Below, piece after piece: positions 7,393 through 25,663 of a stretch of DNA of 64,000 nt (position 1 is the stretch's first letter; every line of letters starts with the position of its first letter). Where the stretch lies: positions 930,001-994,000 of the forward strand of contig NZ_OCNK01000001.1 of NCBI RefSeq assembly GCF_900230285.1. The letters are read 5' to 3'. Both the position numbers and the translations under genes were made by a program. This DNA comes from Blastococcus haudaquaticus. GTDB lineage: Bacteria; Actinomycetota; Actinomycetes; Mycobacteriales; Geodermatophilaceae. Below the pieces are notes generated by a model, which saw only the letters and a program-made list of their open reading frames with translations, did not search any database and was not told the origin of the DNA.

Positions 7393-7411
7393 TGGTCTAA
7401 CCATTTGCCCA
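7393..7411. promoter_or_regulatory. 19-bp dyad operator, site a
   Basis: The site reads TGGTCTAACCATTTGCCCA and matches the shared dyad consensus TGGTCTAAYCATTAGACCA at 17 of 19 positions. It lies just after the stop of the dehydrogenase-like gene and upstream of the importer operon on the minus strand. It differs from site e (19492) at only two positions. Confidence 0.7.
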
Positions 7412-7426
7412 ACCGTTATCGGACTG

Positions 7427-8266
7427 TTACCCGTCGTCCGATCGCAGCGGGCCGTCCGCGAGTAGCCGGGCGACGTCATCGACCGTCGTGCGGGCCATGA
7501 CCTCGCGCGCCGTGGACGCCACCGGGACGTCCATGCCGACGCGCTCGGCCAGGTCGGCGGTGTTGGCGAGATCCTTGGCATGCCAGGTCAACCGCATCTG
7601 CTCGAGCTCTCGCAGCGTGCGTGAATCGGTCGGGCCGTCCTGCAGGGCGGCGCGCAGAACCGGCACCGACACGCCGCCCCGGCGCGCCAGCTCGAGCGCC
7701 TCGGTGATCGCCGAGATCTGCGCCCAGTGCACGAGGTTGTTCGCCGTCTTGCCGACCTGCCCCGCCCCGAGCGGACCGAGATGGTGCACCGCCTTGGTCC
7801 AGGGTTCGATCAGCGGCCGGATCTTGGCGAGGATTTCGGCGTCGCCGCCGACCAGGAGGTTCACCTCGCCCGCCTCGGCCCCCCGCACACCGCCGGTCAA
7901 GGCGGCATCGAGCACGCCGACCCCCGGTGGCGCGGCGTCGGCGATCGCCTGGCAGGTCTGGGGGCGCACGGAGGAGCAGAGCAGCACCACCGCCCCCTCG
8001 CGACATCCGGCGAGCAACCCGTCAGCACCGAGGCAGACATTCCGCACGTCCGCGTCGGAGGGGACGAAGATCAACACCAGACCGGCGCCCCGAGCCGCGT
8101 CGGGCAGCGACGCGACCGGTCGGGCGCCGAGCGCTGCGGCGCGACGGACCGCACCACCGTCGAGATCGAAGACCTGGACGGGGACCCCCGCGGTCAGGAG
8201 GTGGCGCGCGACAGGGGCGCCCATGGCGCCCAACCCGATGACGGCGACTGCTGCTGCATCGGCCAC
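7427..8266 (-). CDS. NAD-binding 3-hydroxyisobutyrate dehydrogenase-family protein
   Basis: The 279-residue protein is a beta-hydroxyacid dehydrogenase. It has the Rossmann motif GLGAMG (11-16), the substrate-binding TGGVRGAEAG (124-133) and GAGQVGKTANN (167-177), whose lysine (about 173) is the catalytic residue in this family. Members oxidise 3-hydroxyisobutyrate, tartronate semialdehyde, 6-phosphogluconate-like or related 3-hydroxyacids with NAD(P). The GTG start at 8266 follows AAGGAG. It diverges from an MFS gene across operator b. The neighbouring oxygenase operon contains a PanB-fold protein that might make or cleave a hydroxyacid, so a linked role is possible, but the substrate is not known. 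Confidence 0.8.
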   Translation of the reverse strand: MADAAAVAVIGLGAMGAPVARHLLTAGVPVQVFDLDGGAVRRAAALGARPVASLPDAARGAGLVLIFVPSDADVRNVCLGADGLLAGCREGAVVLLCSSVRPQTCQAIADAAPPGVGVLDAALTGGVRGAEAGEVNLLVGGDAEILAKIRPLIEPWTKAVHHLGPLGAGQVGKTANNLVHWAQISAITEALELARRGGVSVPVLRAALQDGPTDSRTLRELEQMRLTWHAKDLANTADLAERVGMDVPVASTAREVMARTTVDDVARLLADGPLRSDDG

Positions 8267-8319
8267 TCTCGGTCTCCTTCGAACGGGGCAGCCACGTGGT
8301 CGCCGTCACGTCTCGCATA

Positions 8320-8338
8320 AGGTAATACCTTCAGACCA
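8320..8338. promoter_or_regulatory. 19-bp dyad operator, site b
   Basis: The site reads AGGTAATACCTTCAGACCA and matches the consensus at 13 of 19 positions, the weakest of the seven; the inner GGTAATACC is itself a small palindrome. It lies between two divergent genes, 53 bases from the dehydrogenase start (8266) and 19 bases from the MFS start (8358). Confidence 0.55.
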
Positions 8339-8357
8339 GTCGTCAAGGGGGTGGCAC

Positions 8358-9680
8358 ATGCGATGGCCCCCCCTCCGACGTCGTCGGGCGCCTCCAGCTG
8401 CCGAACCCCCCCGACCGTGGCGCGAGCGCGCGTTCCGGTCCCTGCGGGTGCCGAACTACCGAACCTTCTTCACCGGTCACGCCGTCAGCGTGACCGGCAC
8501 CTGGATGCAGCGAGTGGCGCAGGACTGGCTCGTGCTCGAGCTGTCCGACTCCGCGGTAGCCGTAGGCGTGGCCACCGCCCTGCAGGCGGTGCCGACCCTG
8601 CTGCTCGGCGTGTGGGGCGGCGTGCTCGTCGACCGCCTGGACCGGCGCCGCACGATCATGGGCACCCAGGCCGTCAGCGCGGTCCTGGCCGCCGTCCTCG
8701 CGGTTCTCACCCTCACCGGGGCCGTCCAACTGTGGATGGTGTTCGGGCTCGCCTTCGGCCTGGGCCTGGTCACAGTCCTCGACGGACCGGCGCGCCAGGC
8801 CTTCATCACCGAGATGGTCGGCCCCGAGGACTACGTCAACGCGCAGTCGCTCAACTCCACGATCCACAACCTGGGGCGCCTCCTGGGCCCCGCCGCGGCA
8901 GGGCTCCTCATCGCCTGGGCCGGCAGCGGGCTCGCCTTCGCCGTCAACGCCGCCTCGTTCGTGGGGGTGCTGGCGAGCCTCTGGCGCATCGACCCCGACC
9001 GCCTGCACCGCCGCGAACCCGCCCCGCGCCGCAGAGGCCAGGCGATGGAGGCTCTGCGCTACGTCTGGCGCCGCCCCGACCTGCGTGCCTGCATGCTGCT
9101 CGTCACCGTCGTCGCCCTGTTCGGCCAGAACTTCCGGGTGGTCCTGCCGGTCTTCGCCCGGGATGTCCTCGGCGGCGGCGCGGAGACCTACGGGTGGCTG
9201 ACCTCCGCTCTCGGCGCGGGGGCCGTGATCGGTGCCCTGGGCAGCGCGGCACGGGAGCGGGTCAGCACCTGGTCGTTGCTGCTGTGGACCGGCGGTTTCT
9301 CCGGCGCCAGCATGCTGCTGGCCGGAGCGCCCGGCCTCGCGATCGCCCTGGGACTGCTCGTCGGCCTGGGCGTCACCAACATCTGCTTCAACACCCTTGC
9401 GCGGGTCCTGCTGCAGCTCGGCGTCGACGCCAGCATGCAGGGCCGCGTCATGGCGCTGCACGCCACCGTCTTCCTGGGCAGCACGCCGATCGGCGGGCCG
9501 CTGCTCGGTTGGATCTGCGAGCAGTTCAGCGCACGGGCGGGTCTGTTCCTCAGTGGCGTGGCCCCCGCCGTCGCGGCCCTGGCACTGCTGCCCACGCTGC
9601 GCCGCCTGCGCCCGCGGTCCGACGAGCCTCCTGCACCCGACCAGGCCGTCGAGCCCGGGATCCGGACGACCCCCTCCTGA
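8358..9680 (+). CDS. MFS transporter (MFS_3 / EntS-like)
   Basis: This 440-residue protein has about 12 hydrophobic helices, an N-terminal motif FRSLRVPNYRTFFTGHAVS typical of the MFS_3 group, and the loop GVLVDRLDRRRTI after helix 2. ATG at 8358 is preceded by a G-rich ribosome site. The start lies only 19 bases downstream of operator b, so a bound regulator could block transcription or initiation directly. A hairpin at 9767 ends the unit. It resembles the MFS proteins at 1509 and 44362 in family only. As part of the island it is likely to move a pathway compound, but whether it imports or exports is unknown. Confidence 0.85.
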   Translation: MRWPPLRRRRAPPAAEPPRPWRERAFRSLRVPNYRTFFTGHAVSVTGTWMQRVAQDWLVLELSDSAVAVGVATALQAVPTLLLGVWGGVLVDRLDRRRTIMGTQAVSAVLAAVLAVLTLTGAVQLWMVFGLAFGLGLVTVLDGPARQAFITEMVGPEDYVNAQSLNSTIHNLGRLLGPAAAGLLIAWAGSGLAFAVNAASFVGVLASLWRIDPDRLHRREPAPRRRGQAMEALRYVWRRPDLRACMLLVTVVALFGQNFRVVLPVFARDVLGGGAETYGWLTSALGAGAVIGALGSAARERVSTWSLLLWTGGFSGASMLLAGAPGLAIALGLLVGLGVTNICFNTLARVLLQLGVDASMQGRVMALHATVFLGSTPIGGPLLGWICEQFSARAGLFLSGVAPAVAALALLPTLRRLRPRSDEPPAPDQAVEPGIRTTPS

Positions 9681-11826: not shown

Positions 11827-12660
11827 TCAGGTCGCTGACGGGACCGGGATGCCCCCGGGCAGCTGGCGGGCGGAACGGACGTCGTCGGCGTACGTCGTCA
11901 TCGCCTCCAGCGTGAGCTGGGCGACGTTGACGTAGGTGTCGCGTGCCCCGTCGAGGGCCGACGCCGCGTAACCGATGGCCGCGTTGACCATCCGCATGCG
12001 GCCGTCGAGCCACGGACCGCCACCGAAGCCCCCGACGACCGGGATGGAGACGGCATCGGCCACCGCGGCACCGACCACCGGGCCGGAGTTGGTGAAGTTC
12101 AGCAGGGCGGCGCCCGCGTCCTCCAGCCGCCGGGCCTCGGCGACCATGTCGTCGAGCAGCTCCGCCGGCACCGCATCGGCCGCCGACGGCACGGACTTGT
12201 ACTCGACGCCGTACCGCAGCGCCGTCTGCGGCGTGATGCCGAACTGCGCGAACACCGGGATCCCTGCGCGGTTCACCGCCTCGACCGCCTCCGGGTAGTC
12301 CGAGGCAGCGTCGAGCTTGACCATGTCGACGCCGGCCTCCTTGACGAACCGGATGGCCGCACGGACCGCCGCGTCGGCGCCCTCCTGCAACGGGCCGAAC
12401 GGGAAGTCGACGCTGACCAGTGCCCGGGAGACTCCCCGGCGCACGGCCTTGGCGACGACCAGCATCTCCTCCATCGTCACCTCGAACGGGTTCGAGTGAC
12501 CCCAGAGGTTCACGCCCACGGTGTCGCCCACGGAGACCAGGTCGACGCCGGCGCGGTCCACGATCCGGGCGACCTGGTAGTCCCACGCCACGACGCCGAC
12601 GATCTTGCGCCCGTCGTCCTTCATCCGCTGCAGGTCGCGCAGCCCCACGCGCTCAGACAC
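11827..12660 (-). CDS. PanB-fold (ketopantoate hydroxymethyltransferase-like) protein, divergent active site
   Basis: The 277-residue protein aligns with ketopantoate hydroxymethyltransferase: SVGDTVGVNLWGHSNPFEVT (43-62) corresponds to the PanB metal-binding VGDSLG motif, VSVDFPFGPLQ to VVADMPFG, and QFGITPQTA to GHIGLTPQ. However, the region that carries the catalytic glutamate in PanB (LEGVP or similar) reads LLNFTNSGP, and the GH of GHIGLTPQ is AQ. So metal binding may be kept while the folate-dependent aldol step of pantothenate synthesis probably is not. The GTG start at 12660 overlaps the previous gene by eight bases. It belongs to the Rieske operon and is likely an aldolase or lyase-like pathway enzyme. 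Confidence 0.72.
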   Translation of the reverse strand: MSERVGLRDLQRMKDDGRKIVGVVAWDYQVARIVDRAGVDLVSVGDTVGVNLWGHSNPFEVTMEEMLVVAKAVRRGVSRALVSVDFPFGPLQEGADAAVRAAIRFVKEAGVDMVKLDAASDYPEAVEAVNRAGIPVFAQFGITPQTALRYGVEYKSVPSAADAVPAELLDDMVAEARRLEDAGAALLNFTNSGPVVGAAVADAVSIPVVGGFGGGPWLDGRMRMVNAAIGYAASALDGARDTYVNVAQLTLEAMTTYADDVRSARQLPGGIPVPSAT

Positions 12661-13168
12661 GGAGCGCGCTCAGCAGGTCGACGACGTCGGCCTCGTCGGC
12701 CGAGGGAAGCAGCACCCGCGCGTGCGGCCGCAGCGCGGCCACGGCCGCCGCGGCCGCCGTCCCGGCGTGCGTGCCGTCCCCGAGCACCAGGCCCGCGGTC
12801 TGGATCCCGCGCTCCCAGCAGGCCTTGCCGAGTGCGTAGGCGCCCCCCACGCCGGAGTCGTTCGTGGCGACCATGACGACCACCGACGCGCTGGCCAGCT
12901 CGTCGGCGAGGGTCGCCGGACCGCCGTCGATGCCGCGCAGGACGACGTCCCCGGCGGCGCCGGCGCCTGCCTCGCACACGTAGAAGCGCGCGTTGGCCCA
13001 GTCGTGCTGCGCCGTCCGGCTCAGCACGTCCGCCGCACCCTCGTCCAGGGCGACGACCCGCCCCGCCCGCGACGGGGCGATGGGCCGGTCGATCCGGTAG
13101 CGCGCCTCCTGGGCCGTGGCCGCACGGGCGCAGCTGCTCAGTGTCTGCGTCTGGACCGCCACGGTCAC
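12653..13168 (-). CDS. protein of unknown function in the Rieske operon (171 aa)
   Basis: I do not recognise this protein. Its GTG start at 13168 overlaps the Rieske stop as GTGA, and its end overlaps the PanB-like start, so it is embedded in a tightly packed operon. The sequence alternates predicted strands and helices in a Rossmann-like pattern, with ARFYVCEAG, the hydrophobic strand ASVVVMVATNDSGVGGAYALG (about 90-110, written here in part), and a loop VLGDGTHAGT. There is no signal peptide or membrane helix. The conserved-looking glycine loops suggest binding of a nucleotide or phosphate. The context implies a role in the oxygenase pathway. Confidence 0.6.
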   Translation of the reverse strand: MTVAVQTQTLSSCARAATAQEARYRIDRPIAPSRAGRVVALDEGAADVLSRTAQHDWANARFYVCEAGAGAAGDVVLRGIDGGPATLADELASASVVVMVATNDSGVGGAYALGKACWERGIQTAGLVLGDGTHAGTAAAAAVAALRPHARVLLPSADEADVVDLLSALRV

Positions 13169-14451
13169 ACCGAGGAGATCGGGAAGCCGGGGCGGACGCG
13201 GACGTCGTCGCGGGCGGCGGCGAGAAACGCCTCCTTCTGCGGGAGCACGACGGCGGCCGACCGGACGTGGTGGTGCGCCGGGTCGACCCCGGGCGGGGTC
13301 ACGCCCTTGTCGCGCAGCGCGGTGGCCGCCCGGTACAGCTTCTGGCGGGCCTTGATGATGCCGCTGTCGGCCGGGACCAGGCGCTCCTTGGTGCGGTCGA
13401 CGATCGGGCCCATGCTCTCCTGCAGCGAGGAGTCCTGGATCGCGATGCCCTCGACCCCGGAGTACCACTCCCCGGTCCGCTGCTTCTCGCGGTTCATCAG
13501 GTAGTCGTTGTCCATGTTCGCCTCGGGCCGGTAGGTGCCCGGGATGTTCTTGCTGTGCACGCCGTGGCCGTCGACCATGGCCTGCCGCTCCGCCTCGGTG
13601 AGGGGCCGCATGGGGTGGTAGTCGAAGCTGTACGCCCAGCAGTTCTCGTCGTCGATCGGGATCCAGAAGTGCCCGTGGATCGGGTGGTCACCGCGCGGGG
13701 GGACCATCGTGAACGACGGCATAACCCACGGCGTGATCCGCCAGTAGTACGACCCCTCCTCGGCATTGCGCCGGGCTCCGACGAAGAGGCCACCGTCGCT
13801 GTCGGCCACCTCGAAGAACGGCTTCGTGTCGTTGAGGTTGTACTGGTTGCCCTTTGCGCCCTTGAACAACGGGTCGCTCCTCAGGCCACCGGAGTGCAGG
13901 AACGTCACGTGGCTGGAATCGATGCCGCCTTCGAAGGCCTGCAGCCAGTTGCTCTGCTGCCAGCGCTTGGAGGTGTAGTGGTGCTCCGGCGGGGTGAGCG
14001 CGAACTCGAACTCCGGCAGGGGCGGCTGGGTCGCCGGGTCGCCCATGTACGTCCAGAGGACGTCACCGATCTTCACCAGCGGGTACGAGGTCAGCTTCAC
14101 GTTCTCGGCGAAGCTGGAGTTGTCGGCCTCGGAGGGGACCTCGACGCACTGGCCCGTGGTGTCGTACTTCCAGCCGTGGTACGGGCAACGCAGGCCGCCA
14201 TCCTCGTTCCGCCCGAACCAGAGGGACGCGCCGCGGTGTGCGCAGAACTCGTCGATGAGACCGTAGTTGCCGTAGCTGTCGCGGAAGGCGACCAGGCGCT
14301 CGGAGAGCAGCTTGAGCCGGATCGGCGGGCAGCCGTCCTCCGGCAGCTCCTCAGCCAGACAGGCGGGCATCCAGTACTGGCGGAACAGCTCACCCATGGC
14401 CGTTCCTGGGCCGGTCCTGGTCAGCAGCTCGTTGATGTCCTGGCGAAGCAC
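13165..14451 (-). CDS. Rieske non-heme iron oxygenase, phthalate 4,5-dioxygenase-like large subunit
   Basis: The 428-residue protein has a Rieske [2Fe-2S] centre with Cys70-x-His72 (FCAHRG) and Cys89-x2-His92 (CPYHGWKYD), and a catalytic domain with the mononuclear-iron histidines His181 and His186 in IDSSHVTFLHSG. The N-terminus (LLTRTGPGTAMGELFRQYW) is characteristic of the phthalate 4,5-dioxygenase and phenoxybenzoate dioxygenase group, single-component alpha-only oxygenases. These dihydroxylate a ring or demethylate an aromatic ether. It lies 69 bases after the ferredoxin gene, its likely electron donor; no reductase is encoded in the window. The exact substrate is inferred to be a carboxylated aromatic. 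Confidence 0.87.
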   Translation of the reverse strand: MLRQDINELLTRTGPGTAMGELFRQYWMPACLAEELPEDGCPPIRLKLLSERLVAFRDSYGNYGLIDEFCAHRGASLWFGRNEDGGLRCPYHGWKYDTTGQCVEVPSEADNSSFAENVKLTSYPLVKIGDVLWTYMGDPATQPPLPEFEFALTPPEHHYTSKRWQQSNWLQAFEGGIDSSHVTFLHSGGLRSDPLFKGAKGNQYNLNDTKPFFEVADSDGGLFVGARRNAEEGSYYWRITPWVMPSFTMVPPRGDHPIHGHFWIPIDDENCWAYSFDYHPMRPLTEAERQAMVDGHGVHSKNIPGTYRPEANMDNDYLMNREKQRTGEWYSGVEGIAIQDSSLQESMGPIVDRTKERLVPADSGIIKARQKLYRAATALRDKGVTPPGVDPAHHHVRSAAVVLPQKEAFLAAARDDVRVRPGFPISSV

Positions 14452-14520
14452 GGGTCTCTCCTGTCCCAGCCGCGTGGTGGGCTGAATGTCTTACCTCGAT
14501 GGGGGGCCGTCAACTGACGG

Positions 14521-14844
14521 TTACGGCTGCTGGGGCGGCACGTCGACGGTCAGACCGTCCAGCTCGGGCGAGAGGGGGATCTGACAACTCAGCCGGCTGC
14601 TGTCGCGCGGCTCGGAGACCGCCATCTCCAGGAGGTCCTGCTCCAGATCGTCCGGCTCGCCGACGAGCTCGGCGAACTCCGCTCGGACCCACACGTGGCA
14701 CGTCGCGCAGGAGGCGTTCCCCCCGCATTCACCGATGATGCCGGGGACGCCGTTCTTGACGGCCGTGGCCATCACCGATTCCCCGACGGCTCCGTCCACC
14801 GCATGCTCTTGACCCGAGCCCCCGACGTAGACCACCTTCGGCAC
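14521..14844 (-). CDS. [2Fe-2S] ferredoxin, putidaredoxin type
   Basis: The 107-residue protein has the adrenodoxin/putidaredoxin cysteine pattern: Cys40, Cys46, Cys49 (ECGGNASCATCHVW) and Cys87 (RLSCQIPL). Such ferredoxins carry single electrons to oxygenases or P450s. It is the first gene of the operon that continues into the Rieske oxygenase, making it the likely donor, although phthalate 4,5-dioxygenases classically use a fused FMN-ferredoxin reductase. The GTG start at 14844 follows GGAAGGTG. Operator c lies 46 bases upstream. A matching ferredoxin reductase is not present in the window and would have to come from elsewhere in the genome. Confidence 0.88.
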   Translation of the reverse strand: MPKVVYVGGSGQEHAVDGAVGESVMATAVKNGVPGIIGECGGNASCATCHVWVRAEFAELVGEPDDLEQDLLEMAVSEPRDSSRLSCQIPLSPELDGLTVDVPPQQP

Positions 14845-14890: not shown

Positions 14891-14909
14891 TGGTATGTCC
14901 ATTAGACCA
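14891..14909. promoter_or_regulatory. 19-bp dyad operator, site c
   Basis: The site reads TGGTATGTCCATTAGACCA, matching the consensus at 16 of 19 positions. It lies between divergent starts, 46 bases from the ferredoxin gene and 21 bases from the histidine phosphatase gene. A second interleaved inverted repeat, AGACCACATTGTGTCT at 14904-14919, overlaps its right half. Confidence 0.68.
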
Positions 14910-14930: not shown

Positions 14931-15590
14931 ATGCCCAGCCTCGTCCTCCTGCGCCACGGCGAGAGCGCCTGGAACGCGCGGGACGTCTTCACCGGCCAGG
15001 TCGACGTCGACCTCACGCCCCGCGGCGAGGAGCAGGCCCGGCGGTGCGGACCGACCCTGCGCGAGGCGGGCCTGCTCCCGGACCGGGTGTACAGCTCGAC
15101 CCTGACGCGTGCGGTCCGCACGGCTGCGCTGGCCCTCGCGGCCGCGGGGCGCCCCTGCACCCCCACGCAGGATTGCCGCCTCGACGAGCGCAGCTACGGG
15201 GCCCTCGAGGGGCTCCCGCGCTCCGAGGTCCTCGCCCGCCACGGCGCGGAGCAGTACCGGCGGTGGCGCCGCTCGTGGGACGTGGCTCCCCCGCCGGTCC
15301 GGATCGGGGGCGTCGTGCGCCCCGGGGAGAGCCTCGCCGACGTCGCCGCCCGCCTGCGGCCCTGCTGGGAGGACGTCCTGGCGCCCGACCTCCGAGTCGG
15401 CCGCACCGTCCTGGTGGTCGCGCACAGCAATTCCCTGCGGGCGCTGATCGCCGTCCTGGACGGGGTGGGACCCGACCGGGTGCCGGAACTGGAGGTCCCG
15501 ATCGCCGAGCCGCTGCACTACCTGCTTGACGACCGGGCGAGGCCTCTCGTGCCGGGCGGCCGGTACGTCAGGTCGCTGCCGCAGCGGTGA
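14931..15590 (+). CDS. histidine phosphatase / phosphoglycerate-mutase-like protein
   Basis: The 219-residue protein carries the histidine phosphatase signature LLRHGESAWN with His9 as the phosphorylated residue, ERSYGALEG like the cofactor-dependent phosphoglycerate mutase GpmA, and the second histidine in VVAHSNSLRAL. It could interconvert 2- and 3-phosphoglycerate or be a phosphatase of another substrate. GpmA proteins are usually about 230-250 residues, so it is slightly short. It shares operator c with the oxygenase operon and is followed 85 bases later by the regulator gene, so both may be transcribed together. A glycolytic-type enzyme in a catabolic regulon is unusual. Confidence 0.72.
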   Translation: MPSLVLLRHGESAWNARDVFTGQVDVDLTPRGEEQARRCGPTLREAGLLPDRVYSSTLTRAVRTAALALAAAGRPCTPTQDCRLDERSYGALEGLPRSEVLARHGAEQYRRWRRSWDVAPPPVRIGGVVRPGESLADVAARLRPCWEDVLAPDLRVGRTVLVVAHSNSLRALIAVLDGVGPDRVPELEVPIAEPLHYLLDDRARPLVPGGRYVRSLPQR

Positions 15591-15669: not shown

Positions 15670-15675
15670 GCGGGG

Positions 15676-16452
15676 GTGACGACGTCGGGACCAACCGTGG
15701 CAGCAACCTCTGAGAGCTCCGCGGTCGGCAAGGGGGACCTGCTCAGCCGTGTGAGCGTGGGCCGCATTTCCGAGGTCATCGTGGACCAGATCCGCATGCT
15801 CATCCGGCAGGGGCAGCTGATTGCCGGTGACCGACTGCCCTCGGAGCGCGAGCTGTGCGAGCGGTTCGGCGTCAGCCGGGTCACCGTGCGGGAGGCGCTC
15901 CGGGTGCTGGAGGCCAACGGTCTGGTCGAGATCCGCGTCGGCGCCCGAGGAGGTGCGTTCGTGACCGCCCCGAGCAGCCGTCTGGTGGGAGCCGGGATCG
16001 CCGACCTCATCTCGCTGGCCACGCTGACCGCGGTCGAGGTCACCGAGGCCCGCATGGTGTTCGAACTGGGCATCGTCGCGCTGGTGTGCGAGCGGGCGAC
16101 CGACGAGGACGTCGCCGCACTCCGGGAGATCTGCGACCGCAGCAGCGCCGCCCTGGAGAACGACGACTACCCGCTCGAGCTCTCCGCCGAGTGGCACACC
16201 CGGTTCGCCGTGGCGACGCACAACCGCGCGGTCGCCATGCTCGTGGAGTCGCTGCACGATCCGCTGGTGCACTCGCTCGAGCGAGCCCGCGAGGTGGCAC
16301 CGCTGCACGGCCGTCAGGGCGTCGAGGAGCACCGCGCCCTGGTGGAGGCGATCGCCGCCCGCGACGCGGACGGCGCGACGGACCTGATGCGCACCCACCT
16401 GCTCCGCACGGCCGAGCGGGTGCGCGGGATGGAGCCGGCCGACCGGGGGTGA
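15676..16452 (+). CDS. GntR-family transcriptional regulator, FadR/FCD subfamily
   Basis: The 258-residue protein has an N-terminal winged helix (LPSERELCERFGVSRVTVREAL, about 54-75, given here in part as DRLPSERELCERFGVSRVT) and a C-terminal all-helical FCD ligand-binding domain. Histidines in EWHTRF, EEHRAL and RTHLLR fit the metal site of such domains. Earlier in-frame starts would overlap the phosphatase gene, so GTG at 15676 is chosen. FCD regulators usually bind short palindromes with TGGT/ACCA half-sites and release DNA on binding a carboxylate. It is the only full regulator inside the island and the best candidate to bind the seven 19-bp operators. Confidence 0.88.
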   Translation: MTTSGPTVAATSESSAVGKGDLLSRVSVGRISEVIVDQIRMLIRQGQLIAGDRLPSERELCERFGVSRVTVREALRVLEANGLVEIRVGARGGAFVTAPSSRLVGAGIADLISLATLTAVEVTEARMVFELGIVALVCERATDEDVAALREICDRSSAALENDDYPLELSAEWHTRFAVATHNRAVAMLVESLHDPLVHSLERAREVAPLHGRQGVEEHRALVEAIAARDADGATDLMRTHLLRTAERVRGMEPADRG

Positions 16453-16465: not shown

Positions 16466-18052
16466 TCACTGCCCCGGCTCGTCCCCGAAGACCAGCGACT
16501 TGATCGTGACCGGGACCGTCCGGGACGGGTAGCGCAACCGACCGATGTCGACGTAGTCGAAGTCCCGCAGGGCGAGGCCGTCCACGACCAGCACGTCGAC
16601 GGTCACGCCGAGCTCGTGTTGGAGCAACCGGCCTACGGTCATCGCGACGTCCCCGTCCAGCACGACGTACACGGGGCGGCCGGCGGCGATGCGTTCCGCC
16701 AGCCCGTCACGCACCCCGCGCGCGAAGGCGGCCACCCGGTCGTAGCTCGGCAGACCGGACCACGACATGGCGAGGACGACGTCCTGGTCGGCGGCCGCGG
16801 CATCGAGGGCCACGAGGTGCCGGCGGACCGCCGCGGCCACCGCGTCGGCGTCCACGGTCTCCTCCAGCTCGTGGACCGGGTGCACCACCTGCAGGTTGCG
16901 ACGCGGCAGCAGGGCGTCGGGATCGGAGATCCACCCGGTGTTGCCGCTGAGCTGGACGCTGTACTCCGAGGCCCCGAGCGCGGTCGCCCGGATGCACTCG
17001 CCGGCGGGTAGCAGCGGGCAGGGCAGCGCCCCGGCGTCGACCAGCCGTCGGACCGCCTCGCCCAGCGGGCGGCCGAGGTCGCCGAACGACGCGCGCTCCC
17101 GCCCGTAGACGTACTCGGCCACACCACCGGAGAACACCACCCCGTCGACGGGGCCGACGTCGGGGAGCGGATCGGTCAGGTACAGCTCGGCCACGTCCGG
17201 AGGGAGCTGCTTCCCGAGCGCGGCCAGCAACGCCTCGGCCATACCCTCGGCGACCCGCTCGACGTCCTCGCCGGCGACCACGTCGCCCAGGCTCCAGGAG
17301 AAGCCGGCGCGCTGTGCATGGGCCCGACCGCCCGGCTCGAGCCGGACGATCACCCCTGTCTCGTCCACCACCTGCAGCCGCCCGCCGATGTGGATCGCCG
17401 CGGTGGCCACCACCCGGCCGCGGTCCAGCACCGACAGCTTCGTCGTGCCGCCCCCGATGTCGACGTTGAGGATGCGGCGGCCGGTCTCGTACGACGCGCG
17501 CGCCGCCCCGGAGCCGAAGCCGGCCAGCATCGCCTCCATGTGATGCCCCGCCGTGGCGGTGACCAGTTCTCCGCCCCGCTCGGCGAGCACCCCGGCAATC
17601 GCCTCGGCGTTGCGGCGGCGGAGCGCCTCCCCGGTCAGGATCACCACGCCGGTGTCGATGTCCTCCGGACCGATGCGGGCCTCGCCGTAGGCGCGGTCGA
17701 TGATCGTGCCCAGCGCCTCGGCGTCGATGTGCTCGGCGCTCGCGTACGGGGTCAGCGCCACGGGGGAGCGGTACACGGTGTCGCGCCGGACGACGATGTA
17801 GCGGCTGGTCAGGTCCTCGCCGATGCGCCGCAGGTGCAGCCGCGAGAAGACGACCTGGGTGCCGGAGGAGCCGATGTCCATGCCCACGCTGTGCAGCGTG
17901 ACGTTGTCCTGCTGCCAGATCGGGTTGTCCTCGAGCGGCAGCTCGGCGTCGTCGTGGTCGTGGTCGTGATCGGGCGTGTGCGGCGAGTACACCGTCCTCG
18001 GCTCGGCGTGCTCGCGGCCGTAGACCGGCTCGGCGGGGTGGGTGTGCGTCAC
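16466..18052 (-). CDS. EutA-like ammonia-lyase reactivating factor homologue
   Basis: The 528-residue protein matches EutA, the ATP-dependent chaperone that exchanges damaged cobalamin in ethanolamine ammonia-lyase. It has actin/Hsp70-type phosphate loops MDIGSSGTQVVF (58-69) and NVDIGGGTTKLSV, a GGRLQVVDE segment, and the EutA-like C-terminus YVDIGRLRY...VPVTIKSLVF. An added N-terminus has a histidine/aspartate-rich stretch, DHDHDHDD (28-35), possibly metal binding. No EutB, EutC or other cobalamin enzyme is encoded in the window. It follows the cupin gene on the same strand, with a hairpin between them. What it reactivates here is unknown. Confidence 0.8.
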   Translation of the reverse strand: MTHTHPAEPVYGREHAEPRTVYSPHTPDHDHDHDDAELPLEDNPIWQQDNVTLHSVGMDIGSSGTQVVFSRLHLRRIGEDLTSRYIVVRRDTVYRSPVALTPYASAEHIDAEALGTIIDRAYGEARIGPEDIDTGVVILTGEALRRRNAEAIAGVLAERGGELVTATAGHHMEAMLAGFGSGAARASYETGRRILNVDIGGGTTKLSVLDRGRVVATAAIHIGGRLQVVDETGVIVRLEPGGRAHAQRAGFSWSLGDVVAGEDVERVAEGMAEALLAALGKQLPPDVAELYLTDPLPDVGPVDGVVFSGGVAEYVYGRERASFGDLGRPLGEAVRRLVDAGALPCPLLPAGECIRATALGASEYSVQLSGNTGWISDPDALLPRRNLQVVHPVHELEETVDADAVAAAVRRHLVALDAAAADQDVVLAMSWSGLPSYDRVAAFARGVRDGLAERIAAGRPVYVVLDGDVAMTVGRLLQHELGVTVDVLVVDGLALRDFDYVDIGRLRYPSRTVPVTIKSLVFGDEPGQ

Positions 18053-18139: not shown

Positions 18140-19261
18140 TCAGGCCGCAGACCTGGGCGGAAGATTCTCCTTCTCCTGCTCGTACGCGGCCTCCATCTTC
18201 GGCTCCAGCCCGTGCTTGGCCAGCGCCTCCTTGAAGGTCTCCCGCACGTACGACGACTCGTCGGCGTAGTCGATCTGGTCGCCACCGATGCGCTGGCTGA
18301 TCCAGGCCTTCGGCACACCCTGGGCGTTGCGGATGGACACCACCTCGTGCTTGAAGGCGAGGTAGCGGGCCGGCTCCGTGCCGGTGTTGAAGTGCTGGTG
18401 GTACCACATGTTCGGCGGGACGATCATGCTTCCGGCCTGCCACTCGTAGCGCCGGGGCTCCTCGCCCTCCGGCCACATGAGGCTGTAGCCCTCGCCCGAC
18501 AGGATGATGACGTGGGCGCCGGGGCCGTGGCGGTGACCCTTCTTGTACGTCGCGGTCGGGAACTGCGAGATGTGGCTGTTCATCGAGCCCTTGGCCATGT
18601 TGAAGCGGATGTGCCCACCGCCGGCACCGCGCTCCTTGGCCTCGATCAGCGGCAGGTTGATCGAGTCGGCCACGAAGTTGGTGTCGAGCAGCAGGCCCTT
18701 CTGCTCCCCCTTGGGCGCGAAGTAGTCCGGCTCGCCGTTGAAGCGCTTGGGGAAGTCGTGGGCGGTGCCGAAGACGAAGTCGATGTCGTCGTAGAGGTTG
18801 ATGATCCCCGGCGCGTTCGTCGAGGAGACGAAGCGCGCGACCTCGGTGCCCGAACCGTTGAAGTGCTGGTGGTTGGCGTTGAGCGGAATGGCGAAAAGCG
18901 CCCCCGGACCCCACTCGAAGGTCACCTCGGCACCCGAGTCGTTCCACACCTTGGTGGACCCGTGGCCCGAGAGGACGAGGATCATCTCCTCGAACAGCTG
19001 CCGCTGCGGGGCCAGCTGCCCTCCGGTCGGGATCTCGGCCACGTAGCAGTCGTTCGAGGTGCGACTGGCCTCGTGGTTGATGAAGACGCCCCTGCCGCCG
19101 CGACGGGCCCAGTCCTTGAGCTCGACCGTCTTCAGGTCGGGCACGTAGTGCGCGGCGATGATGTCCAGCCCCTCGTCGGCCACCCAGCGGGTGTACGGCG
19201 AGTCCTTCTCGGTGGCGAACTTCGCCGCAAGACTCTCGTTGACGATGGCGTCCTTGGCCAT
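18140..19261 (-). CDS. bicupin-domain protein, possibly dioxygenase-like
   Basis: The 373-residue protein contains two cupin regions. The first spans about residues 65-150 (EMILVLSGHGSTKVW, then NANHQHFNGSG) and the second about 230-310, with the metal-site pattern GHRHGPGAHVIILSGEGY and WYHQHFNTG. Both have histidine pairs consistent with an iron or manganese centre. Gentisate-type ring-cleavage dioxygenases have this layout, but the motifs are not close enough for me to name the reaction. ATG at 19261 follows GGGAGG. Operator d is 66 bases upstream. It heads a unit with the EutA-like gene and diverges from the flavin monooxygenase. Confidence 0.72.
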   Translation of the reverse strand: MAKDAIVNESLAAKFATEKDSPYTRWVADEGLDIIAAHYVPDLKTVELKDWARRGGRGVFINHEASRTSNDCYVAEIPTGGQLAPQRQLFEEMILVLSGHGSTKVWNDSGAEVTFEWGPGALFAIPLNANHQHFNGSGTEVARFVSSTNAPGIINLYDDIDFVFGTAHDFPKRFNGEPDYFAPKGEQKGLLLDTNFVADSINLPLIEAKERGAGGGHIRFNMAKGSMNSHISQFPTATYKKGHRHGPGAHVIILSGEGYSLMWPEGEEPRRYEWQAGSMIVPPNMWYHQHFNTGTEPARYLAFKHEVVSIRNAQGVPKAWISQRIGGDQIDYADESSYVRETFKEALAKHGLEPKMEAAYEQEKENLPPRSAA

Positions 19262-19327: not shown

Positions 19328-19346
19328 CGGTAGGACCATAAGACCA
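19328..19346. promoter_or_regulatory. 19-bp dyad operator, site d
   Basis: The site reads CGGTAGGACCATAAGACCA, matching the consensus at 14 of 19 positions. It lies 66 bases upstream of the cupin start on the minus strand. Confidence 0.6.
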
Positions 19347-19491: not shown

Positions 19492-19510
19492 TGGTCTAAT
19501 CATTCGCCCA
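19492..19510. promoter_or_regulatory. 19-bp dyad operator, site e
   Basis: The site reads TGGTCTAATCATTCGCCCA, matching the consensus at 16 of 19 positions. It lies 25 bases upstream of the flavin monooxygenase start. Together with site d it gives each of two divergent genes its own element, 145 bases apart. Confidence 0.68.
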
Positions 19511-19535: not shown

Positions 19536-21116
19536 ATGACCGAGCGACCCCAGGTGATCATCGTCGGCGGCGGCCCGGTCGGGGTGGGCCTCGCGCTCGA
19601 CCTCGGGCTGCGCGGCATCCGCTGCGTCGTCGTCGAGCGGCGCACCGAGCTGTCCAGCATCCCCAAGGGGCAGGGGCTGTCGCAGCGCACGATGGAGCAC
19701 GCGGCGCGCTGGGGCGTCGCGGACCAGCTGCGCGCGGCACGCACCATGCCCGAGGGGCACCCCATCGGGCAGGTCACCGTCTACGACAACCTCCTCGGCG
19801 AGTTCTGGAGCGCTCCGCCGGCGCGCGAGCTGGTGCAGGACTACTACGCCCAGGCCAACGAGCGCCTGCCCCAGTACCGCACCGAGGAGGTCCTGCGCCG
19901 CAAGCTCGCGGAGGTGCCCGGGGTCGAGCTGCGGCTGGGCTGGAAGGCGACCGAGCTCGAGCAGGACGACACCGGCGTCCGGGTGACCGTCGTGCGCGAC
20001 GGTCGGCACGAGGTCCTGGAGGCGGCCTACGTGGTCGGCTGCGACGGCGGGCACTCCGTCGTCCGGGAGCAGGCCGACATCGAGCGCAGCGGCACCGACT
20101 GGGACGAGCTCGTCGCGCTGGTCGTGTTCCGCTCGCCGGAGCTGCACGAGGCGCTGAGCCGGTTCCCCGACCGGTCGACCTACCGCGTGATGCACCCGGA
20201 CCTCAAGGGGTACTGGATGTTCTTCGGCCGGGTCGACGTCGGGGCGGAGTTCTTCTTCCACGCCCCGGTCGCCCCCGGCACCACCGCCGACGGTCCGGAG
20301 ATCGTCGAGCTGCTGCACCGGGCGGCCGGATTCCCCTTCCCCCTGGAGATCGACCACGTCGGCTTCTGGGATCTCCGCGTCCAGGTGGCCCACCGCTACC
20401 GCGCGGAGCGGGCGTTCATCGCCGGGGACGCGGCGCACACCCACCCGCCCTACGGCGGCTTCGGACTCAACAACGGCCTCGAGGACGCGGCCAACCTCGG
20501 CTGGAAGCTCGCAGCCGCTCTGCAGGGATGGGGCGGCGACGCGCTCCTGGACTCCTACAGCCTGGAGCGGCAGCCGGTCTTCCGGGACGTCGGCGAAGAC
20601 ATCATCGGCGGCTGGATCCGGGACGACCGGGCCATGCTGGAGAAGTACCGCCCCGAGGACGACCCGGAGGAGTTCGCCCGCGCCTTCGAGGAGGCCGCGC
20701 GCGGCTTCGGCCGCCGGCTGCGGAGCTTCGAGCCCCACTACGAGGGCTCTCCCGTGGTCTTCGGCCCGCCCGGAGCCGTCAGCAGCGCCCACGGCGAGCA
20801 CACCTTCACCGCCCGCACGGGACACCACCTGCCGCCGCGCCGCCTGAGCTCCGGTCGCCCGGTCTTCGAGGAGCTCGGTGCTGGTTTCACCCTCCTGGCC
20901 CTGGACGCGGACGACTCCACGGTCAGCGACTTCGAGGAGGCCGCCCGGTCCCGGGGCGTCCCGCTGACGGTCATCCGCGACGCGCCGGCCGGCGAGACGG
21001 CCGACTACGGGCAGCGGCTGATCCTCGTCCGGCCCGACCAGTTCGTGGCCTGGACCGACAAGGGGTCCCCGGTCGACGCCGAGCAGGTCCTGACGCGGGT
21101 CACCGGCGCCTCCTGA
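19536..21116 (+). CDS. class A FAD-dependent aromatic monooxygenase
   Basis: The 526-residue protein has the flavoprotein hydroxylase signatures: the FAD Rossmann motif IIVGGGPVGVGLALDL (8-23), the DG motif VVGCDGGHSVVR (about 165-176), and the ribityl-binding GDAAHTHPPYGGFGLN (about 296-311). A C-terminal thioredoxin-like domain (after about 400) is as in PheA/TfdB/MhpA-type phenol hydroxylases. Such enzymes use NAD(P)H and oxygen to hydroxylate a phenolic ring. It has its own operator (site e) and would act on a phenolic intermediate or substrate in the cytoplasm. The specific substrate cannot be told. Confidence 0.86.
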   Translation: MTERPQVIIVGGGPVGVGLALDLGLRGIRCVVVERRTELSSIPKGQGLSQRTMEHAARWGVADQLRAARTMPEGHPIGQVTVYDNLLGEFWSAPPARELVQDYYAQANERLPQYRTEEVLRRKLAEVPGVELRLGWKATELEQDDTGVRVTVVRDGRHEVLEAAYVVGCDGGHSVVREQADIERSGTDWDELVALVVFRSPELHEALSRFPDRSTYRVMHPDLKGYWMFFGRVDVGAEFFFHAPVAPGTTADGPEIVELLHRAAGFPFPLEIDHVGFWDLRVQVAHRYRAERAFIAGDAAHTHPPYGGFGLNNGLEDAANLGWKLAAALQGWGGDALLDSYSLERQPVFRDVGEDIIGGWIRDDRAMLEKYRPEDDPEEFARAFEEAARGFGRRLRSFEPHYEGSPVVFGPPGAVSSAHGEHTFTARTGHHLPPRRLSSGRPVFEELGAGFTLLALDADDSTVSDFEEAARSRGVPLTVIRDAPAGETADYGQRLILVRPDQFVAWTDKGSPVDAEQVLTRVTGAS

Positions 21117-21227: not shown

Positions 21228-21246
21228 CTGTCCTACCATTAGGCCA
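21228..21246. promoter_or_regulatory. 19-bp dyad operator, site f
   Basis: The site reads CTGTCCTACCATTAGGCCA, matching the consensus at 14 of 19 positions. It is 33 bases upstream of a small gene (21280). An additional perfect inverted repeat, ACCATTA at 21235-21241 and TAATGGT at 21249-21255, overlaps it. Confidence 0.6.
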
Positions 21247-22298: not shown

Positions 22299-23345
22299 TC
22301 AGTACAGGGTGGCCAGCAGCTCGCTGTAGGCCGGCGGCGCGTCCATGAGGTCCTGCACGAGGCCCTCGAGCTCGTCGCCCGGCAGGAATGCCAGCTCGCG
22401 CTCCTGCTCCTGGGACTCCGTCACCAGCTCCGGGTTCTCCATCGCTGCGGCCATCGCGGTGCGCAGGCAGGACATCGCGGCCTCGTCCATCCCGGGCGGG
22501 CCGACGAAGGGACGGCCGAGCTCGATGAGCGCCAGGTGTGCGTCGAGCAGTTCGGACTGCTCCTCGGTCGTCTCCAGCTCCGCGACGGTCGGGACGTCCT
22601 CGGGCAGCCAGTCCGGCCGCTCCTCACCCACGACGAGCACCGGGGTCTGGGTGTCGTCCTCGACCGCGCCGCGCCGGCTGGTGAGGTTGCCCGACATCCC
22701 GTCGATCGAGCCCTGGACGACCGCCAGCTCCGTCTCACCCGAGCCCGGGAACCCGGTCACGACCTCACCGGGGATGTCGAAGACTGCGCTGATCAGGGAG
22801 GAGGTGACGTAGTCCTCGGCGCCCGGACCGGTGGAGCCCCAGCGGAACTCGTCCGCGGCCACGACGTCCTCGAACGTCTGGTACGGCCCGGTCGCGCTCG
22901 TGACGAGCAGCGACGGGTCACTGGCCACGCGGCCGATGTAGGTGAAGTCGTCGAGGGAGAAGTTGGCGCCCTCCGCGCCGGCGATCGACGAGCCGCCGGC
23001 GCCGACGCCGTTCATGATCGCGAGCGTCGTGCCGTCGGCGTCCTCGGCGAGCAGGCTGTTGAGGGCCAGCAGTCCCCCGGCGCCGGGCTGGTTCTGCACG
23101 GCGATCGTGGCCCCGATCTCCTCCTCGATGTAGGGCGCGACGAGCCGGGTGTAGGAGTCGTAGCCGCCACCGGGCTCGTAGGGGACGACGATGGTGATGG
23201 TCTCCCCCTCGAGGGAGGAGCAGTCACCACTCCCGCCGGAGGCGGCCGGTTCGGAGTCGCTCGAGCAGCCGCTGAGCACACCGGCGCCGAGGCCGAGTGC
23301 GACCAGCGTCCGGAGGCTCCGCCGGTAGGGCAGGGCAGTGTTCAT
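22299..23345 (-). CDS. tctC: TctC-type solute-binding lipoprotein
   Basis: The 348-residue protein has a lipoprotein signal with lipobox VLSGCSS (Cys27) and the receptor signature VVPYEPGGGYDSYTRLVAPYI followed by NQPGAGGL. It is clearly related to the receptor at 9822 (shared PYEPGGGYD and PGAGGL blocks). ATG at 23345. It lies 49 bases after tctB and is followed by the cysteine hydrolase gene. It captures a carboxylate outside the membrane for TctA/TctB. Confidence 0.88.
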   Translation of the reverse strand: MNTALPYRRSLRTLVALGLGAGVLSGCSSDSEPAASGGSGDCSSLEGETITIVVPYEPGGGYDSYTRLVAPYIEEEIGATIAVQNQPGAGGLLALNSLLAEDADGTTLAIMNGVGAGGSSIAGAEGANFSLDDFTYIGRVASDPSLLVTSATGPYQTFEDVVAADEFRWGSTGPGAEDYVTSSLISAVFDIPGEVVTGFPGSGETELAVVQGSIDGMSGNLTSRRGAVEDDTQTPVLVVGEERPDWLPEDVPTVAELETTEEQSELLDAHLALIELGRPFVGPPGMDEAAMSCLRTAMAAAMENPELVTESQEQERELAFLPGDELEGLVQDLMDAPPAYSELLATLY

Positions 23346-23394
23346 CGATTTCCCTCTCGGAGACGGTGACGGTGCAGGGGGGACGAAGGGTGGT

Positions 23395-23997
23395 TCAGTC
23401 CAGGAAGAGACCGGGCGGCACCGGGATGCCGAGCGCGAGCTCGAAGGCGGCGTACAGCACCGCGCCGATGGTGACGGCGTAGATCGCGCAGAACGTCCAC
23501 GACCGCTTGCCGGCGAAGCGCAGGTACAGGACCGAGAAGAGCGGCGCGGTCACGAAGAGGCCGGCGACGTAGAGCAGCACGAAGAACCCGGTCACCCAGG
23601 CGATCGCCTCGGTCCAGCGCCGCGCCCCCGCGGTCTGGAAGACGTACTCGACGTCGTCCTCGTTGGCGTCGTCCTCGGCGGTGGTGCCGGCCGCCTGCGG
23701 CACGGACTCCGCCGGCACCGGCTCGATGGGACCGGCGGGGCTGGTGACCGGCGTCCGGGCACCCGCGGCGCGGCGCCCGCCCGCGAGCCGCAGCAGTGAC
23801 TGCACGACCTGCAGGAACGCCACGGAGAACCCGAGGCCCGTCACGATGCGGGGGAAGATCGCCGCTTTGAACGACCAGTCGGCAGCTTCGAGGAAGGCCC
23901 AGCCGAAGAGCGCCAGCAACAGCAGGCCGAGGACGACGTCGGCCACGGCCCCCGTCGACGATCTGCGCGACGGCGCCTGCGGGGCCGGGTCTGCCAT
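23395..23997 (-). CDS. tctB: TctB small membrane subunit
   Basis: About 200 residues with four hydrophobic segments in the TctB pattern: one near residues 20-40, one near 45-65, and two in the C-terminal third (WVTGFFVLLYVAGLFVTAPL, then a final helix), separated by a hydrophilic Pro/Glu/Asp-rich linker. The start is taken at ATG 23997 because it follows GAGGAG; a longer version from ATG 24054, overlapping the tctA stop as ATGA, is also possible. With TctA it forms the membrane part of a sodium- or proton-coupled carboxylate importer. Confidence 0.8.
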   Translation of the reverse strand: MADPAPQAPSRRSSTGAVADVVLGLLLLALFGWAFLEAADWSFKAAIFPRIVTGLGFSVAFLQVVQSLLRLAGGRRAAGARTPVTSPAGPIEPVPAESVPQAAGTTAEDDANEDDVEYVFQTAGARRWTEAIAWVTGFFVLLYVAGLFVTAPLFSVLYLRFAGKRSWTFCAIYAVTIGAVLYAAFELALGIPVPPGLFLD

Positions 23998-24050
23998 GCC
24001 GATCTCCTCGGTCCGGGCGGGGGACGTCGTGTGCCTCGACTCGGCGGCGC

Positions 24051-25574
24051 TCATGCCGACACGCCGCTCTGCTCGGGGCGCTTCTCCGCCCGGCTGCGGG
24101 CCCGCGCGCGCCGCACGACCGGCCCGACGATGGCCAGCAGCATGACGGCGCCGATGCCCAGGACGATCGGCCTGGTGAGCCAGTCCCACCCGAACAGCGA
24201 GTAGGAGAGGAAGAGGTACCGCTCGGCGAGGGAGCCCAGGACGACGGCGAGCAGGAAGGGCACCCGCGGCCAGTCGTAGCGGATGCAGACCACCCCGACG
24301 ATCGCGGCGACGATCATCACCAGCACATCGGCGAAGCTGTTGCTGGCGGTGTAGGCGCCCAGCGCGAGCAGGAGCAGCAGGAACGGCACGAGCAGCGGGC
24401 CGGAGATGAACGTCAGGCGGGTGAGCGGCTTGAGGACGAAGAACGCCGCCGCCACCGCGATGAAGTTCGCCAGGACGGTCACCCAGATCATCGAGAAGGT
24501 GACGTCGAGGGACGTCGTCAGCATCTCCTCGCCGGGGTTGAGTCCGACGATGAGGAAGGCGGACAGCAGCACCGCGCTGCCGGCGCCGCCGGGGATGCCG
24601 AAGCCGATCGTCGGGATCAGCGAGCCGCTGTCCTTGGCGTTGTTCACCGCCCCCGAGGCGATGACGCCCTCGACCGCACCCTTACCGAACATCTCCGGCG
24701 TCTTCGAGCTCTGCTGCGCGGCGCCGTAGGCCATGAACTGGGCCACCGAACCGCCCAGGCCCGGGACGATCCCCACGCCGGTGCCGATGGCGCTGGAGCG
24801 GATGACCAGAGGCCAGTGCCGCAGGACGTCGCGGATGCCCTGCCCCACCCCGCTGAGGGAGGCCTCCGGCGTCGCGCCCCCGTCGGCGCTGGCGATGCTG
24901 CGCTTGCTCAGCATGAGCTGGAGCACCTCGGCGCCACCGAAAAGGCCCACGACCAGCGGGACGATGCCGATGCCGTCCCACAGGTAGAGCTGCTCGAAGG
25001 TGTAGCGCTGCGTTCCCTCCTGCGGGTCCAGCCCCACGAGGGCGATGAGGAGCCCGAAGGCAGCCATGATGAAGCCCTTGAGCAGGTGCTTGCCCGACAG
25101 TGCGACGACGAAGGTCAGGCCCAGCATCGTCAGGGCGAAGAACTCCGGCGGCGCGAAGGCGAGCACGACCGGGCGGATCACCGGGATGGCGAGGGCGAGA
25201 ACCAGCGCCCCGAAGACGGCACCGAGGGCGGAACTGAACAGGACCGCGCCCAGCGCGCGGCCGCCCTCGCCGCGCTTGGTCATCGGGTGCCCGTCGAGCA
25301 CCGTGGCGGCCGACGTCGCCTCACCGGGCACCCCGAAGAGCACCGAGGTGATGTCCCCGGTCGTCGACGTGACCACCCACATGCCGAGCAGGAAGGCGAA
25401 CGCCTCGACCGGCTGCATGTCGAAGGTGAACGGCAGCATCAGCGCCAGCGTGACCGCGCCACCGAGGCCGGGGAGGATGCCGACCAGGAACCCGATGGCG
25501 ACACCGAGCAGCATGAGCGCCAGTGGGAGCGGCTGGAAGACCTGGGTCAGGCCACTGATCGCCTCGGACAGCAT
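24051..25574 (-). CDS. tctA: TctA large membrane subunit
   Basis: The 507-residue protein has about 12 hydrophobic helices and the TctA signatures: GILPGLGGAVTLALMLPFTF near residue 30 and GIVPGLGGSVAQFMAYG near 260, plus a FGVPGEATSAATVLDGHPMT segment. ATG at 25574 follows a GGAGAG-type site; an earlier GTG start is less likely. It is the first gene of the unit tctA-tctB-tctC-hydrolase, with operator g 70 bases upstream. It would carry a tricarboxylate or aromatic carboxylate across the membrane, and may also serve the receptor encoded at 9822. Confidence 0.9.
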   Translation of the reverse strand: MLSEAISGLTQVFQPLPLALMLLGVAIGFLVGILPGLGGAVTLALMLPFTFDMQPVEAFAFLLGMWVVTSTTGDITSVLFGVPGEATSAATVLDGHPMTKRGEGGRALGAVLFSSALGAVFGALVLALAIPVIRPVVLAFAPPEFFALTMLGLTFVVALSGKHLLKGFIMAAFGLLIALVGLDPQEGTQRYTFEQLYLWDGIGIVPLVVGLFGGAEVLQLMLSKRSIASADGGATPEASLSGVGQGIRDVLRHWPLVIRSSAIGTGVGIVPGLGGSVAQFMAYGAAQQSSKTPEMFGKGAVEGVIASGAVNNAKDSGSLIPTIGFGIPGGAGSAVLLSAFLIVGLNPGEEMLTTSLDVTFSMIWVTVLANFIAVAAAFFVLKPLTRLTFISGPLLVPFLLLLLALGAYTASNSFADVLVMIVAAIVGVVCIRYDWPRVPFLLAVVLGSLAERYLFLSYSLFGWDWLTRPIVLGIGAVMLLAIVGPVVRRARARSRAEKRPEQSGVSA

Positions 25575-25644
25575 GCTGATCTCTCCACTCCGTCCACGGG
25601 CGCCGGGCGGCACGTTCCCGTGGGGGGATCAACACCGCTCAACC

Positions 25645-25663
25645 TGGTCGGACCATTAGGCCA
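25645..25663. promoter_or_regulatory. 19-bp dyad operator, site g
   Basis: The site reads TGGTCGGACCATTAGGCCA, matching the consensus at 16 of 19 positions. It lies 70 bases upstream of tctA on the minus strand and marks the right end of the island. Confidence 0.68.

Follow-up and report, generated by a model that had tools for sequence, protein, structure and literature searches.

Regulators of the FadR subfamily pair a winged helix with an FCD domain and recognise a core of the form TKGT-N3-ACMA. In the FadR, LldR, PdhR and GlcC regulons single sites occur in divergent promoters, and extra half-sites lie near the core; such boxes, reported for 13 FadR groups at 7-12 nt from the centre, are weaker, scoring on average about half as much as a true half-site (PMC4494728). 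Here we analyse a set of short repeated words in a 64,000-nt stretch (the window) of the 4.51-Mb genome of Blastococcus haudaquaticus, which probably serve as operators for the FadR-type (GntR/FCD) regulator whose gene starts at 15676 and, judged from sequence, would place the surrounding catabolic genes in one regulon with a composite operator of three half-sites. Taken alone, a single regulon under this regulator appears very likely; the composite shape is less sure, hence our lower confidence in the combined reading. The domain pair, the core, the extra half-sites and the single sites in divergent promoters of the FadR, LldR, PdhR and GlcC systems all recur at this locus. It departs from them in that the outer box is near full strength, keeps a constant distance of 8 bp to its partner, lies usually to one side of the core, and replaces the inner partner at ferredoxin promoters. 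The operator is of the FadR subfamily in kind, and goes beyond it in strength and regularity.

Among solved structures, the best relative of the regulator by sequence is NanR of E. coli (PDB 6ON4, E-value 7.5e-22). The two systems share same-orientation half-sites at short spacing (here 8 bp) and about 31 residues ahead of the winged helix (PMC8012715). NanR however binds three direct GGTATA repeats as three cooperating dimers (PMC8012715), whereas we find two half-sites on the same strand combined with one inverted, and no GGTATA direct repeat. That the protein itself might be NanR was rejected, as its score with the NCBIfam NanR model is 132.1 bits, below the curated cut-off of 260. A probable functional likeness is offered by HypR of Streptomyces coelicolor, an FCD protein that has three histidines at its metal site and acts as a repressor of several catabolic units and of its own expression, yet through a different motif, CTNTGC(A/C)ATGTCAC, and in a different pathway (PMC6608401). 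H174, H219 and H241 of our regulator, which at the level of sequence correspond to the metal histidines, are invariant in 18 aligned regulators, while the position four before H174, an aspartate in TM0439 (PMC6608401), is mostly serine. Neither this regulon nor this catabolic cluster is described among the matches listed by an open-licence literature search; the novelty is a new FadR-family regulon and an unusually strong composite operator.

All seven 19-mers that a sequence-only reading of the window had put forward as operator copies are present where it placed them (Table 1), and six of its counts of matches to TGGTCTAAYCATTAGACCA are right, the copy at 19492 having 17 rather than 16. With up to three mismatches, TGGTCTAAYCATTAGACCA occurs at four places in the window (five rows, one site being found on both strands), at a shuffle expectation of 0.00 (100 shuffles of the window); the whole genome yields the same four places and no other, and the reversed pattern gives no match there. 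In a scan of the window with a matrix of the seven sites, these rank at the top (23.3-28.7 bits), followed by the opposite strand of 19492 (20.0 bits), a word at 14478 (17.5 bits) and the opposite strand of 7393 (15.8 bits), the best unrelated word reaching 12.0 bits. When each site was left out in turn, six of the seven still scored above every non-site, and 21228 was exceeded by 14478 alone. The latter word, AGGTAAGACATTCAGCCCA on the minus strand, is an eighth copy, so that the claim of no further copy in the window does not hold. It lies between the ferredoxin and Rieske oxygenase genes, which puts an operator inside what had been regarded as a single ferredoxin-Rieske operon.

A tolerant genome scan first pointed to the locus stretch left of the window (L134), where a matrix of the eight sites recovers four more, of 19.4-22.8 bits and within 8.7 kb; the left edge of the window, at C2:930001, cuts the site set. 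These four precede a second cupin gene, a major facilitator superfamily (MFS) gene and two divergent gene pairs, one of a class-II aldolase and a ferredoxin reductase, the other joining the gene of an alcohol dehydrogenase with that of a protein related to 4,5-dihydroxyphthalate decarboxylase. In total twelve sites fall within 34.3 kb of the genome, eleven of them 19-70 bp from the nearest predicted start codon. A further weak word of 13.3 bits in the left-hand stretch (L134:5857-5875), flanked by genes for a release-factor-like protein and an AAA ATPase, is probably a chance occurrence. Clustering was also assessed with a genome sequence model built from 37 sites, eight of the window and 29 from other genomes. 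At E-values up to 10 it gave seven matches in the whole genome, all within C2:921627-955663, or 0.8% of its length, and those at 921627 and 929574 lie outside the window and were not used in building the model. A loose pattern at zero or one mismatch gives eight places, seven in the island. A genome scan had been proposed by the sequence-only reading as a trial of its regulon, and the outcome does not refute it: no place outside the island at up to three mismatches to the 19-mer, and all seven model matches inside.

For conservation, we turned to loci that encode the Rieske oxygenase and fetched the best 80 of 524, of which 55 are actinobacterial (Blastococcus, Modestobacter and Klenkia among them) and 25 proteobacterial. 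At 18 bits or more, 175 sites turn up with the eight-site matrix in the actinobacterial loci, spread over 53 of the 55 (50 column-shuffled matrices: mean 1.2, largest 6), and none in the proteobacterial ones (shuffled mean 1.4, largest 11). Counted gene by gene in the actinobacterial loci, such a site lies ahead of the cupin gene in 37/37 cases, ferredoxin in 36/47, phosphatase in 20/29 and Rieske oxygenase in 15/54. Genes internal to operons have none: 0/51 for the gene at 12653-13165, 0/52 for the ketopantoate-hydroxymethyltransferase-like gene, 0/51 for the hydrolase and 0/28 for EutA. Among genes present in few loci, sites precede those of the ABC binding protein (2/9), dehydrogenase (2/4), MFS transporter (2/2) and monooxygenase (2/3), and are lacking ahead of TctC (0/4), isochorismatase (0/3) and TctA (0/1). 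An internal control stretch holds no site even at 15 bits, except for ferredoxin (5/47), where the stretch extends beyond the end of the short gene toward the Rieske promoter. Proteobacterial loci again lack a site, ahead of Rieske oxygenase (0/25) as of cupin (0/7). Among individual copies, the word of the 8320 site is identical in loci L024 and L025, and the 25645 site is conserved in family genomes G010 and G022. Sites are hence confined to promoters of linked genes, as expected of one regulon. Short, repeated and intergenic copies could in principle represent a mobile or structural repeat, yet all flanking columns outside -1 to 21 carry at most 0.27 bits, longer conserved flanks are not seen between copies of one genome, and the sites are kept at orthologous promoters in distant genera; this explanation we consider scarcely credible.

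Turning to the regulator, its domains, PF00392 (75.8 bits, cut-off 27) and PF07729 (90.7 bits, cut-off 24.3), are the GntR winged helix and FCD domain that define the FadR subfamily. A search with the window protein in 48 genomes, drawn from 50 of the 80 loci, returned it at E-values up to 1e-30 in 35, namely in 35/35 actinobacterial and 0/13 proteobacterial genomes. Since this contrast follows phylogeny, the test was repeated inside the Geodermatophilaceae, where 18 of 112 genomes have the regulator, 11 with at least 76% identity. The exact word GGTNNNWCCATWAGNCCA occurs in eight of the 112, all among the 11 with a close regulator, and in none of the 94 without a regulator match; its reversed control has no match in the 112. 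All 18 places of the exact word are ahead of ferredoxin/phosphatase, cupin or tctA (15 of 15 checked, and the three of the window). In G028, 64 kb of the same contig separate the cupin copy from the regulator gene; the operator thus travels with the promoter, not the neighbourhood. The regulator is present with the sites and absent where they are absent, again in line with one regulon, and its own gene has a site of at least 15 bits in 19 of 27 actinobacterial loci, five of these reaching 18. The recognition helix is nearly constant across the 18 aligned regulators. The conserved residues of the protein presumably correspond to DNA contacts of E. coli FadR (in part from PMC7797058). In L016-L020, whose regulators have 54-61% identity, a variant of the word, TGGACAGACCATTTGCACA or similar, is found nearby in an unchanged layout, despite an almost unchanged recognition helix.

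The proposal that the FadR-type protein controls the sites as one regulon is therefore well supported by the genome scan, the co-occurrence of site and regulator, and the site at the regulator's own gene. That the sites belong to another regulator, with the FadR-type gene a mere neighbour, is very unlikely: the last two of these observations argue against it, as do the match of the core to the FadR-subfamily consensus and the lack of a second regulator among the island open reading frames (ORFs) given to Pfam, several of which had no match at all. The proteobacterial loci L078-L103 except L083 share the oxygenase at about 70% identity, often with EutA-like, cupin and hydrolase genes, but neither the regulator nor the operator was detected there, so that these shared enzymes seem to be under a different control.

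Several observations nonetheless weigh against the regulon and its operator as we read them. Taken singly, the genome-model matches are not significant (E-values of 0.19-3.3); of the seven, five had gone into building the model, which at E-values up to 10 also missed five of the twelve sites. At three mismatches the loose pattern is rarer genome-wide than its reversed control (505 versus 1289) and thereby useless, so that only its rows at zero or one mismatch were used; one of those eight places, C6:453697, is outside the island. Because single matches are weak, the evidence is carried by the clustering and by the two matches outside the window. Actinobacterial loci L066 and L075 have no site of 18 bits, and sampling was of the best 80 of 524 relatives, with distant actinobacterial cases outside it. 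Three of the 11 genomes with a close regulator (G081, G088 and G089) lack the exact word, and hold near variants of 15.1, 21.7 and 24.4 bits. In the island itself, 7393 is the sole copy of twelve far from a start codon, and 21228 has weak dyads, with two of five inner and three of nine outer pairs.

To resolve the operator, columns were computed from 124 non-redundant sites out of 186. Columns -1 to 19 each exceed 0.6 bits, highest at 12, 4, 19, 8, 11 and 14, and beyond them only column 21 stands out (0.56 bits). Frequencies are.74 for T1,.98 for G3,.94 for T4,.74 for A8,.93 for C9 and.85 for A11, in agreement with the TKGT-N3-ACMA box, from which sites of ferredoxin promoters depart at A8. 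Symmetry is highest about base 10 (6.1), closely followed by base 6 (5.6), with the next best at -3.5; a direct repeat scores best at lag 8, yet negatively (-1.2). The sequence-only reading had described a 19-bp dyad centred on base 10. This centre does have the top score, and the description is incomplete, as base 6 is a centre as well and the site consists of TGGT-N3-ACCA with an outer TTAGNCCA, usually on one side.

Sites chosen by matrix are biased for the outer box, which is part of the matrix, and hence we selected cores by exact TGGTNNNACCA alone, without using the box. Among 49 non-redundant actinobacterial cores so obtained, 31 have TTAGNCCA at five or more of seven matches on at least one side and one has it on both; a control shifted 4 bp further out gives 1/49, and proteobacterial cores 0/9. 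Three half-sites are the rule. A symmetric model of four half-sites was discarded, being rare by this unbiased test (1/49), although 31 of the 124 sites chosen by matrix exceed 14 on the opposite strand at an offset of 8. The same cores speak against a plain 19-bp dyad centred on base 10 and bound by one dimer on widely spaced half-sites, in that the box is on one side. Such a dyad can draw on the top symmetry score and on 19492, with seven of nine outer pairs, and the opposite strand exceeds 8 bits about equally often for centre 10 (61) and centre 6 (57). Above 14 bits, the opposite strand favors centre 6, at an offset of 8 (31 of the 124 matrix-chosen sites, versus 13 for centre 10), and columns 9 and 11 clash at centre 10 (-1.86). 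The promoter classes point both ways: sites near ferredoxin (20 shared with phosphatase, nine alone) have A16 in 29/29 and A8 in 4/29, as an outer dyad would, while sites near cupin alone have A8 in 26/26 and A16 in 0/26, an inner dyad. The former class explains why centre 10 had been seen, and on balance we regard the plain dyad as improbable.

It is more difficult to dismiss, albeit still rather unlikely, that the site is an ordinary FadR-type TGGT-N3-ACCA palindrome, with the outer TTAGNCCA a promoter element or an accessory box without a role in recognition. The consensus and the weaker extra boxes of the subfamily would agree with this (PMC4494728). On the other hand, the last four columns hold 4.9 bits, compared with 6.3 and 5.8 for the core boxes (in sites chosen with the box in the matrix), ferredoxin promoters keep the outer box and lose the inner partner, and among promoter-class sites the box has no fixed orientation relative to the gene, pointing toward or away from it unlike a promoter element. 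We thus favor the composite operator of three half-sites.

A more tentative possibility, which we consider doubtful, is that one regulator reads two registers in one composite site, the promoter deciding which, with this assignment preserved across actinobacterial families: an inner dyad (half-sites 7 bp apart) at the cupin promoters of most genera, and an outer dyad (15 bp) at ferredoxin promoters. The class counts refer to all 186 sites, redundant ones included, and leave out 15 sites near ferredoxin and cupin (A8 in 8, A16 in 7), four near monooxygenase and cupin (A8 in 4, A16 in 2), 26 of other small classes and 86 unassigned, so most sites are in mixed or unassigned classes, which speaks against a clean split. 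So does the window cupin site: with A at position 8 as well as 16 it offers the partner base for either register, which weakens this reading, and the cupin sites of L024 and L025, near relatives of the window, show A at these two positions too. Moreover, the promoter-class sites do not count as many independent cases, since they go back to a few ancestral operators that have passed by descent into many species. For this reason a site-by-site compensation between A8 and A16 was dropped, the association stemming largely from two promoter classes inherited by descent; with both columns masked, at 16 bits, it persists (both 24, A8 only 63, A16 only 29, neither 8; distinct 19-mers, p 0.004). If the two registers are real, they would set a different strength, stoichiometry or induction order for ring oxygenation versus later steps.

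As for binding, stoichiometry, repression and inducer, we propose the following for the composite operator. The twelve copies would face about 16 predicted genes or operons of an aromatic-carboxylate-type island, the regulator's own operon included. Within the operator, TGGT would be opposed to ACCA over a 3-bp spacer (centre base 6) and also to TTAGNCCA, a further ACCA-like box 8 bp beyond that ACCA (centre base 10). A regulator dimer probably sits on either pair, or two dimers cooperate. Most likely the protein represses until released by a pathway compound, as the usual distance to the start codon suits a block of transcription initiation. By analogy with the family members HypR and CitO, the releasing compound is probably a carboxylate, bound at the FCD metal site with its three histidines.

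Table 1. Operator copies and genes of the island; positions refer to the window unless prefixed, and matches are to TGGTCTAAYCATTAGACCA.
Feature	Position	Strand	Remarks
Operator copy	7393..7411	+	TGGTCTAACCATTTGCCCA; 17 matches; 362 bp upstream of ABC importer operon (-)
Operator copy	8320..8338	+	13 matches; between hydroxyisobutyrate-dehydrogenase-like gene (-) and MFS gene (+); inner-dyad site, five of five inner pairs
Operator copy	14478..14496	-	26 bp before Rieske oxygenase start codon
Operator copy	14891..14909	+	16 matches; between ferredoxin (-) and phosphatase-FadR (+); T8, A16, outer-dyad type
Operator copy	19328..19346	+	14 matches; 66 bp before cupin-EutA (-); A at 8 and 16
Operator copy	19492..19510	+	17 matches; 25 bp before flavin monooxygenase gene
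Operator copy	21228..21246	+	14 matches; 33 bp before ORF of 67 aa
Operator copy	25645..25663	+	16 matches; 70 bp before first ATG of tctA (-)
Operator copies left of window	C2:921315, 921625, 923535, 929573		
FadR-type (GntR/FCD) regulator	15676..16452	+	putative binder of the sites
Rieske oxygenase	13165..14451	-	closest solved relative isophthalate dioxygenase 9INA
2Fe-2S ferredoxin	14521..14844	-	PF00111
Histidine phosphatase	14931..15590	+	PF00300
EutA-like protein	16466..18052	-	PF06277
Cupin protein	18140..19261	-	PF07883
Flavin adenine dinucleotide (FAD)-dependent aromatic monooxygenase	19536..21116	+	PF01494
Hydroxyisobutyrate-dehydrogenase-like oxidoreductase	7427..8266	-	PF03446
MFS transporter	8358..9680	+	PF05977
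ABC importer binding protein	5912..7030	-	followed by permease (4032-5795) and ATPase (2802-3947)
Ketopantoate-hydroxymethyltransferase-like protein	11827..12660	-	PF02548; downstream of Rieske gene
TctC, TctB, TctA importer genes	22299..25577	-	
3' part of gene for 313-aa protein	1..556	+	start L134:17615, 23 bp from operator at L134:17573
Ferredoxin reductase	L134:11579-12838		PF07992 with PF14759; own operator copy; left of window

The gene content hints at the substrate. The Rieske oxygenase aligns to 9INA over residues 3-420 (E-value 9.3e-134) and keeps R234 and H257, the residues that hold the two carboxylates (the numbering offset of 23 was deduced from the alignment), while F249 of isophthalate dioxygenase is an arginine here. 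The 313-aa protein at the left edge of the window, without a Pfam or NCBIfam match, is related to 4,5-dihydroxyphthalate decarboxylase (9JP7, E-value 3.1e-25). With 9INA as the closest solved relative, the carboxylate residues kept and an operator at the decarboxylase relative, the pathway is probably for a phthalate-like acid, an aromatic dicarboxylate being the best lead, though only a lead. Isophthalate dioxygenase of Comamonas testosteroni KF1 is a two-component system (9INA; PMC12445078), whereas in the island ferredoxin and ferredoxin reductase are each encoded by a gene of their own; it is plausible that this reductase pairs with the Rieske oxygenase and ferredoxin for electron transfer. 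The phosphatase is probably co-transcribed with the regulator gene 85 bp further on. In most relatives, actinobacterial and proteobacterial alike, the Rieske gene is followed by that of a 170-aa protein (12653-13165) without a match in Pfam or NCBIfam. The EutA-like protein occurs in an aromatic-type cluster, and no ethanolamine ammonia-lyase is present among the ORFs scanned.

Aggregated, the word stands at most gene groups of the island, and many related soil bacteria possess both it and the same control protein, which suggests that one switch very probably governs the whole degradation pathway; the island itself probably breaks down an aromatic acid. The regulon would connect a reductase gene with those of the oxygenase and ferredoxin, about 20 kb away. 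As a natural example it may also help to clarify what extra half-sites do at FadR-family operators, a question left by PMC4494728 for experimental study, and provides a testable single-switch model for a cluster common to Geodermatophilaceae, Streptomyces, Planotetraspora and Mycobacterium.

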